Both the position numbers and the translations under genes were made by a program. This document shows, in pieces, positions 15,470-17,397 of a DNA stretch of 64,000 nucleotides (the first letter of the stretch is position 1; each line of letters begins with the position of its first letter). The DNA is from Chloroflexota bacterium (lineage in GTDB: Bacteria > Chloroflexota > Dehalococcoidia > Lucifugimonadales > UBA2985). A model generated the notes under the pieces. That model saw only the letters and a list, made by a program, of their open reading frames with translations. It was not told the DNA's origin and made no database searches. The stretch spans positions 1 through 64,000 of the forward strand of contig JAPPHY010000005.1 of the NCBI GenBank assembly GCA_028877205.1. Reading direction: 5' to 3'.

Positions 15470-15922
15470 GTGATGTGGAGCGCGCACAGCGGCCGGCCAT
15501 TGCGTATCCTGGCCGGATGGTGGCTAACCGCCATCGCGGCGTCCGTGCTCGTCCTGCCCTCCATCGGGCCGCTGCTGGACCACCACTTTGTTGAGCGGCT
15601 TCCCAGCCACGCACACTCCTACCAGGGCGATGTCACTCCGTCCCACGTCCACCCATACGAGATGCCCGGTCACCTCGGTCACGGCGCGCTTTCCCGCGAT
15701 ACGCTGCTGGAGGCCGGCAATGACCTATACATGGCCCGAGGCGGAGGCGCGGCAGTTGCGCCTGGTGACATCAACACTAAGCAGAGTCCGGACAGCCCTG
15801 TATTCTCAGGCTTGTTCGGACGCGACCTCCCGGCGCTGCTGGGACGAGCGGCCGGCACGCTGATGGGCGCTTTCATCCCGCCGCCGTGGACACCTCCTCG
15901 CCCCGTAGTCCTTTCCCGGTGA
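15470..15922 (+). CDS. Histidine-rich membrane-anchored or secreted protein of unknown function
   Basis: A 150-residue protein I do not recognise. Residues 11-35 form one hydrophobic signal/anchor segment. The following 45 residues are very rich in histidine (DHHF, SHAHS, SHVHPYEMPGHLGHG), which suggests extracytoplasmic metal binding. The C-terminus is proline-rich. The start is GTG at 15470 or ATG at 15473; a TATGAT box at 15458-15463 lies only 6 bases upstream, so the mRNA may be leaderless. It is followed on the same strand by the probable selenoprotein and a cytochrome c gene. A role in metal or redox handling is a guess from that context. Confidence 0.6.
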   Translation: MMWSAHSGRPLRILAGWWLTAIAASVLVLPSIGPLLDHHFVERLPSHAHSYQGDVTPSHVHPYEMPGHLGHGALSRDTLLEAGNDLYMARGGGAAVAPGDINTKQSPDSPVFSGLFGRDLPALLGRAAGTLMGAFIPPPWTPPRPVVLSR

Positions 15923-16050
15923 GAGCGCTCCCTCAATGAGGGCGTATCGGAGCTGCCCCCACAGTCGTCGGTCGGGCGACCTTCGCTACCGGCTACTGCC
16001 GCCATCGGCCGGGCAGCACAGACCATCAAAGAACCGGACCAAGGAGCTAT

Positions 16051-16647
16051 ATGCAGATCCTTCCCTCCGTTAGAGGCTACGGAAGGCCATTCGACTCCCT
16101 CACAAAGAGGGCGCGCGGCCGTCTCCGCGCCCTGCTGACCGGCATCTCAGCGATACTGATGCTTGCGGCTGCCGCCTGCGGCTCGGGCGGCTCCGCCGAG
16201 ACCGCTCAGGACTTCACCCTGCCGTCCGCGTTCGGTTCCAGCGTGTCCCTTTCACGCGTGCTGAGCGAGAACGACTCCGCTGTCATCGTCTTCTACCGAG
16301 GCTCGTTCTGAGGGGTCTGCCAGGCCCAGCTGGTTCAGCTGGCAGAGGCGTACCCGCAGTTCAGAGCGGAAGGAGTGGAGGTGCTGGCCATCAGCATGGA
16401 CGGCATAGTAAGAACCGCCCAGATGGCTTCGTACGCGAGGGCGGGATATCCCGTGCTCTCTGACCAGTCCGGCACGGTGGTACGCGACTATGGCGTATAC
16501 AACCTGCTCGGCGACATGCTGGCTGCACCGGCTACCTTCCTCATCCGCAGAGACATGACCATTGCCTGGCAGCACATAGGAAAGGACGTGTCAGACCGTC
16601 CGACGCCATCGGACATCCTGACCCGAATCCGTCAGTTGCAGCCATGA
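16051..16647 (+). CDS. Peroxiredoxin-like lipoprotein, probable selenoprotein (in-frame TGA at residue 87)
   Basis: A 198-residue AhpC/TSA-type thioredoxin-fold protein when the TGA at 16309-16311 is read as selenocysteine. Before the TGA come a lipoprotein-like N-terminus (cysteine in LAAAACGSGG, about C43), DFTLPSAFGSS and IVFYRGSF. After it, in the same frame, come GVCQAQL, VEVLAISMDG, YPVLSDQSG and APATFLIRRD, all standard for this family. The TGA sits where relatives have the peroxidatic cysteine (FYRG.WCPYC), giving a UxxC redox motif. A perfect hairpin starts 5 bases after the TGA. The start has AAGGAG 4 bases upstream. It probably reduces peroxides outside the membrane, next to a cytochrome c. 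A nonsense mutation or sequencing error is the alternative. Confidence 0.82.
16309..16346 (+). promoter_or_regulatory. Candidate bacterial SECIS element
   Basis: Directly after the TGA, TCTGCCAG (16316-16323) is a perfect complement of CTGGCAGA (16339-16346). An alternative fold pairs CCAGCTG (16326-16332) with CAGCTGG (16336-16342), plus TCTG/CAGA below it. Both folds can present the apical loop GTT at 16333-16335, beginning with G and 21 bases after the TGA, as expected for bacterial SECIS hairpins. Confidence 0.65.
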
Positions 16648-16671: not shown

Positions 16672-17397
16672 ATGATGACCAATACAAGAACTACCGGCAG
16701 GTGGCTCGCAGCCCTGCTCCTGTCCGCACTTGCACTCGCAGCCACAGCGGCCCTGCAGCCTCGCGCAGCCCACGGCCAAACAGACCTCTCGACAGCCAGC
16801 CCGGCGGCGGTTAGTGAGCCGGCCGCGGAAGCGTCCATACAATTTGCGATTGCCGCTCAAGACCACGGCGGCAGTGCCGATCACGGCGAAGGCACAGACC
16901 ACTCACCCTCGATTCTCGCCACACGGCTGATTCCGGGCATTGGGCTACTGGTGATCGGGGGGCTGCTCATGGGAGTAGCGCTGCGCATGGGCGGGTGGTA
17001 CAAGAGAAAGGGGGCGGGCGTCATGGCCGGGGGCCTGGTCGGGTTCGCCGCCGGCGTTGCGCTGGTTATAAGCGGCCTTCCTGGCGGTGGTGACGGCGAC
17101 GATGAGTTGCGCAATCCGATGCCTGCTACCGAGGAATCGATTCAGGCCGGCTTGGCGGTCTACGAGGCAAACTGCCTGTCCTGCCACGGCGAGACCGGCC
17201 ACGGCGACGGCCCGGCCGCGGCCGGGATGGACCCGCCGCCCGCCGACCTTCGGGTTCATGCACATCACCACCCGGACGCTATGCTGTTTGGGTTCGTCCG
17301 TGACGGCATTCCAGACACGCCCATGACGCCCCTCGGAGACGTGCTGACTGCGCACGAAATATGGCACCTCATCAACTACATCAAGACGTTTGAGTAG
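16672..17397 (+). CDS. Membrane-anchored c-type cytochrome
   Basis: A 241-residue protein with a signal peptide (residues 1-37), a spacer, two hydrophobic helices (about residues 83-105 and 113-135) and a C-terminal cytochrome c domain. The single haem motif is CLSCH (about 167-171). The probable axial methionine lies in the region PDTPMTPLGDVLT, and the end HLINYIKTFE is typical of cbb3/class I cytochromes. It should sit on the outer face of the membrane and carry electrons. It starts 24 bases after the peroxiredoxin-like gene, so the two are probably cotranscribed. A weak AGTAGGA precedes the ATG. Confidence 0.88.
   Translation: MMTNTRTTGRWLAALLLSALALAATAALQPRAAHGQTDLSTASPAAVSEPAAEASIQFAIAAQDHGGSADHGEGTDHSPSILATRLIPGIGLLVIGGLLMGVALRMGGWYKRKGAGVMAGGLVGFAAGVALVISGLPGGGDGDDELRNPMPATEESIQAGLAVYEANCLSCHGETGHGDGPAAAGMDPPPADLRVHAHHHPDAMLFGFVRDGIPDTPMTPLGDVLTAHEIWHLINYIKTFE

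Follow-up and report, generated by a model that had tools for sequence, protein, structure and literature searches.

The window, a stretch of 64,000 nucleotides, lies on contig C15 in the genome (2.0 Mb, 22 contigs) of a SAR202/Dehalococcoidia-like Chloroflexota bacterium. The gene at 16051..16647 on its forward strand is open throughout except for a single in-frame TGA at codon 87 (16309..16311), and is terminated by another TGA (16645-16647). A Shine-Dalgarno-like AAGGAG (16041..16046) lies 4 nt before the ATG. Plain ORF calling breaks the gene into an 86-aa fragment and a headless 90-aa ORF, the split that a first-pass annotation of this DNA had foreseen. When the internal TGA is read through, the product is a 198-residue peroxiredoxin (Prx)-like redoxin, supported by homologues and by a match of 98 bits to PF00578 (AhpC/TSA) that covers residues 50-173 and thus spans the TGA. 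Its active-site motif is UGVC, with selenocysteine (Sec) 87 in the first position of UxxC and Cys90 (16318..16320) as the second residue; a UxxC motif had already been read at this site, and homologues share it (FYRGxFUGxC). The protein is also a predicted lipoprotein, as previously proposed: a lipobox-like AAAC (residues 40-43; 16168..16179) follows a hydrophobic stretch, LAAAAC being recognised by eye, and many homologues have a Cys at a place similar to that of Cys43, the residue predicted to be lipidated. On the same strand, a His-rich protein with an N-terminal hydrophobic segment is encoded upstream (15470..15922; 61% to L062:3240-3641 over 38 aa). The gene 24 nt downstream (16672..17397) encodes a cytochrome c with a membrane anchor and a CLSCH motif, so that the neighbours named in the first-pass annotation are indeed adjacent.

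The genome is equipped for selenocysteine insertion. All four components for which a search had been recommended are present: tRNA-Sec (70.3 bits; tRNA-SeC with anticodon TCA by ARAGORN), selB (344.7 bits), selA (552 bits) and selD (365.8 bits), the last of which itself contains a TGA. The 147 genomes belonging to its order gave 49 strong matches (at least 90 bits). An in-frame TGA is present in 48 of them, and it occupies the identical column in all of 30 aligned homologues (motif FYRGxFUGxCxxQL). A wider scan of genome contigs, which gave matches with the alignment as query and none with the single protein, extended the family to named relatives in SAR202/Dehalococcoidia, Anaerolineae and some Gemmatimonadota and Latescibacterota, and the TGA is common to nearly all of these named loci. 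In TGA-free homologues the Sec column is mostly Cys (FHRGRRCTIC, FHRGLECKPC, FHRGYDCTGC, FFRTFLCAPC), as had been expected for residue 87. It would otherwise have to be supposed that the TGA at 16309-16311 is a sequencing error, a genuine stop or a sign of genome-wide UGA reassignment, and the chance of any of these is negligible. A sequencing error is excluded because the TGA is conserved across the homologues of the 147 genomes and the named loci, and the same TGA in dozens of independent assemblies argues equally against a true stop, for which there is nothing except the stop codon itself. Reassignment is rejected since TGA terminates 12 of the 34 long ORFs in the window. The complete Sec machinery and the covarying RNA hairpin described below speak against all three.

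The hairpin, a candidate bacterial SECIS (bSECIS), is located within the coding region at 16313..16355. Its upper stem (16326-16332/16336-16342) and apical loop (16333-16335) have the sequence CCAGCUG-GUU-CAGCUGG, the loop beginning with G exactly 21 nt past the UGA. Its energy is unremarkable relative to dinucleotide shuffles (z -1.3), and the hairpin of the window sequence alone is weak evidence; single-sequence folding was therefore dropped as proof in favour of comparative tests. A bSECIS-like hairpin occurs at the same offset in 24 of 30 homologues, as against 11.2 expected from synonymous recoding. One synonymous pair of the stem joins the last position of a Gln codon to the initial position of a Leu codon four codons on. 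The 67 distinct sequences use CAA/TTG (37), CAG/CTG (25), CAG/TTG with a G-U pair (3) and CAG/CTT (2), while CAA/CTG is never found. This covariation has a Fisher p of 5e-15, which overstates the number of independent events as the sequences are related; it is nevertheless present in every GC3 bin and recurs in divergent genomes of low and high GC. Concordant pairs number 62 of 65, exceeding all GC-stratified permutations (mean 38, maximum 52). In other genes these codons, equally spaced, are independent of each other, TTG following CAA and CAG alike at 23%. Selection thus acts on the RNA, because protein sequence cannot explain synonymous covariation. This comparative evidence is decisive in favour of a functional bSECIS as predicted, which upholds the initial reading of a hairpin with a G-first loop. 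With the conserved TGA, the Cys-bearing homologues, the covarying bSECIS and the Sec machinery all in agreement, the gene almost certainly encodes a selenoprotein in which UGA 87 is read as Sec, as had been thought probable.

The first reading placed the TGA at the peroxidatic position, and this part of it does not hold. In alignments with AhpE, Bcp and BcpB, Sec87 falls on the Thr/Ser of TxxC, and it is Cys90 that falls on the peroxidatic Cys. Arg83 (16297..16299) stands in place of the active-site Pro of peroxiredoxins, and Pro160 (16528..16530) occupies the column of the catalytic Arg (R116 of AhpE, read from the alignment to the R116A entry 4xih), so that the peroxiredoxin set P-T-C-R becomes R-U-C-P. 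These replacements at positions 83, 87 and 160 are near-invariant across the family, and the signature P-x-x-x-(T/S)-x-x-C/U with Arg is lost from the window protein, its P, T and R all being replaced. Pro160 is probably the cis-Pro of thioredoxin-like active sites. In a set of Anaerolineae homologues the motif is CGUGPD, with Asp in place of Cys90 and a Cys two residues before a retained Sec. Because Sec is kept where Cys90 is lost, the essential nucleophile appears to be Sec and not whatever residue stands in the peroxidatic column, and the partner Cys of Sec appears able to move. The CGUGPD variant is seen in L119, L120, L121, L123, L124, L126, L127 and L128, from Anaerolineae and kin, with the bSECIS sequence kept. 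In a confident AlphaFold model (pLDDT 95.2) the first long helix (46-64) begins at Sec, as in thioredoxin-like sites; the closest solved folds are BcpB and AhpE (TM 0.86) and ResA (0.76-0.85). The alignments, the CGUGPD homologues and the model together remove support for the peroxidatic position (see also PMC9312934), while the selenoprotein, the UxxC motif, the bSECIS and the genetic setting of the first-pass annotation all stand.

The protein might still act as a peroxidase, with Sec87 or Cys90 reducing hydroperoxides at the cell surface and either small thiols or the adjacent cytochrome c supplying the electrons. Peroxidases are among the enzymes that favour selenium. The 98-bit match to PF00578 would be consistent with such a role, as would the peroxiredoxins BcpB and AhpE being the nearest folds at a TM score of 0.86; with peroxiredoxins at the top of the fold searches, peroxidase activity through another geometry is conceivable. 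However, peroxiredoxins have four catalytic residues, of which three are exchanged here (P to R83, T to U87, R to P160) in a way that is near-invariant in the family, Cys90 in the peroxidatic column is dispensable in the CGUGPD homologues, and known Sec peroxiredoxins use TxxU (PMC1794560, PMC13188914). A peroxidase is accordingly unlikely. Since Sec is conserved, the peroxidase residues are lost and a Pro is gained, the protein is probably a UxxC oxidoreductase, that is, a selenol:disulfide oxidoreductase, rather than a Prx-type peroxidase. That it is both a selenoprotein and an oxidoreductase of this type is given a probability of about 70%.

Selenoproteins of this kind are an established class, as had been noted. 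They have been described since 2005, as the 'Prx-like protein' from the Sargasso Sea (PMC1088965), as 'Prx-like 1' in the GOS study of 2008 (PMC2398784), and in later reviews as 'Prx-like thiol:disulfide oxidoreductase' with PF00578 and UxxC/UxxU (PMC13188914). Reviews state no tested function for the class, whose published representative is WP_010940744.1. The window protein has PF00578 and UxxC instead of TxxU, and is assigned to the class by this published definition. It shares with the described members the PF00578 domain, the thioredoxin-like UxxC in place of TxxU and bacterial Sec decoding (PMC1088965, PMC2398784, PMC13188914), but differs in being a predicted lipoprotein encoded in a copper/cytochrome c locus. 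The fold (TM 0.86) and the family PF00578 are common to it and to PrxU (TxxU) and AhpE/Bcp/BcpB, whereas its R-U-C-P contrasts with their P-T-C(or U)-R and its Sec lies three residues before the peroxidatic column; the PrxU model NF040737 gives 42 bits against the 270 needed. With ResA/TlpA/CcmG it shares a CxxC-type site, a Pro in the cis-Pro column, a predicted extracytoplasmic location and a link to cytochromes; unlike them it has Sec first, and its fold score is nearer to peroxiredoxins. It does not pass the curated ResA/TlpA/CcmG model (46.9 bits against 170). The best curated model is that of the SelL-related redox protein, NF040769, where it scores 51.6 bits against a cut-off of 120, while a two-Sec homologue, L056, passes (132.6 against 120). 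With the window protein, all curated NCBIfam models stay below their cut-offs.

The mechanism proposed from these features is as follows. UGA codon 87 is, on the comparative evidence, decoded as Sec by the SelB and tRNA-Sec of the genome under the guidance of the bSECIS 21 nt downstream. A lipid anchor presumably holds the protein outside the membrane, where a peroxiredoxin-type fold would carry a thioredoxin-type UxxC active site. The selenolate of Sec87 would attack a client disulfide or an oxidised thiol, with Cys90 resolving the intermediate, and a donor would then restore the Sec87/Cys90 pair. The protein would thus work as a fast extracytoplasmic selenol:disulfide oxidoreductase. Its clients may be the neighbouring copper and cytochrome c proteins, with their Cys ligands or copper sites kept reduced; they are suggested because gene order is conserved, and the odds of a copper/cytochrome client are put slightly below even. 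The window genome, which is 96% complete, has no match to a DsbD/CcdA transmembrane reductase (DsbD_TM/CcdA) or to VKOR. The route of electrons across the membrane is thus without a DsbD/CcdA or VKOR candidate, despite the extracytoplasmic thiol/selenol redox proteins in the genome.

The gene order in question is seen in relatives. In L071, L072, L073, L079 and L080, the selenoprotein gene adjoins a gene that fuses CopC, CopD and cytochrome c in a product of some 740-770 residues, and the conserved locus consists of a His-rich protein, a YtkA-like protein, a cupredoxin-like protein, the UxxC protein, the fusion and a membrane protein roughly 500 residues long, the contig of L079 holding only part of it. 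The YtkA-like protein is named from sub-threshold Pfam matches in three homologues, and the cupredoxin-like protein from a weak match in one of three. The His-rich protein of the window has a homologue in this locus, and the window cytochrome c has 48% identity to the C-terminal 150 aa of the fusion; when the genome was searched with the fusion as query, CopC-CopD did not turn up elsewhere. By sequence comparison, the setting in the window is a trimmed form of the conserved copper/cytochrome module. The locus is absent from the available sequence of 57 of the 62 named loci searched, and its members are not united in a single supported clade of the tree. The setting is limited to the closest homologues and only partly general. 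No selenoprotein in SAR202 or beside CopC is described in the literature searched, most subscription papers lying outside its reach; within that scope the earlier remark that the setting was not known to be described agrees with what was found, and the copper/cytochrome c cluster around the closest relatives looks new.

This neighbourhood bears on two further roles. As a Sco-like copper chaperone or copper-site reductase, the protein would bind or reduce copper through Sec/Cys for the cupredoxin, CopC or an oxidase. CopC, CopD, YtkA-like, cupredoxin-like and His-rich proteins adjoin the gene in relatives, in keeping with such a role. However, the window genome contains, besides a haem-copper oxidase, a separate Sco encoded on the same contig as the oxidase gene, CopC-CopD is absent from it, and no additional copper ligand is obvious in the sequence, so this role is rather improbable, somewhat more so than that of a peroxidase. 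Least probable of the three is a thioredoxin-like reductase of cytochrome c maturation in the manner of CcmG/ResA. The adjacent cytochrome c gene and the sub-cut-off ResA match of 46.9 bits point towards it, but a Cys-type CcmG/ResA-like protein (WCSPC) is encoded on contig C9, where a gene for cytochrome c assembly lies about 3 kb away, and a general CcmG role is less likely because this protein seems to fill it. In preference to these roles, the window protein is regarded as a UxxC oxidoreductase, a real selenoprotein of a known class in marine-type Chloroflexota, and its link to copper and cytochrome c is interesting but only partly general. A broader proposal assigns a surface redox protein that depends on selenium to a copper/cytochrome c assembly module of SAR202-type Chloroflexota (His-rich, YtkA-like and cupredoxin-like proteins and CopC-CopD-cytochrome c) as a dedicated component, its family having expanded into 'beads on a string' lipoproteins whose two or three Sec domains are joined by Pro/Thr-rich linkers; it is doubtful at present. 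If true, it would connect the use of selenium with copper respiration in bacteria that abound in the ocean. If gene order reflects function, redox care of extracytoplasmic copper and cytochrome proteins would offer a concrete clue to the retention of selenocysteine by aerobic marine bacteria.

Within these bacteria the family has branched out into tandem copies and multi-Sec open frames. L054 (G127:C1, reverse strand, 705 codons) has three Sec codons, U128, U321 and U592, each in its own UxxC domain, and L053, L055 and L056 are single open frames with two Sec codons, each within its own UxxC redoxin domain; Pro/Thr-rich linkers connect the UxxC domains in L054 and L056. In the multi-Sec frames a hairpin sequence of the same kind follows each UGA. 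According to a 2026 review (PMC13188914), a single Sec is the rule in the vast majority of selenoprotein families of prokaryotes, and a small subset has two or three, so the multi-Sec lipoproteins are unusual, though not unheard of; they would be useful for testing how a bacterial message with several UGA codons is decoded. Because ORF calling misses or splits the gene and no NCBIfam model reaches its cut-off, the annotation of this whole Sec-rich family of Chloroflexota redoxins is probably incomplete. The window genome encodes a second selenoprotein of the family (G000:C9:16628-17059, reverse strand; L050/L136), a lipoprotein whose long stalk is rich in Pro and Thr and whose domain has the motif FYRGFWUPFC. 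Two further likely Sec redoxins of this genome are found at G000:C1:99495-99938 (L138; FTGGUTHQC), about 5 kb from selA, and at G000:C1:10628-10834 (L139; FYRGHWUGYC). In L102, L108, L112, L113 and L129, from Anaerolineae and kin, a Cys-type thioredoxin-like domain (WCPPC or WCPAC) is fused in frame to the UGxC domain. Closely similar copies from Gemmatimonadota (L074, L086, L088) and Latescibacterota (L099, L117) are placed inside the Chloroflexota tree, which suggests recent horizontal transfer or mis-binned contigs.
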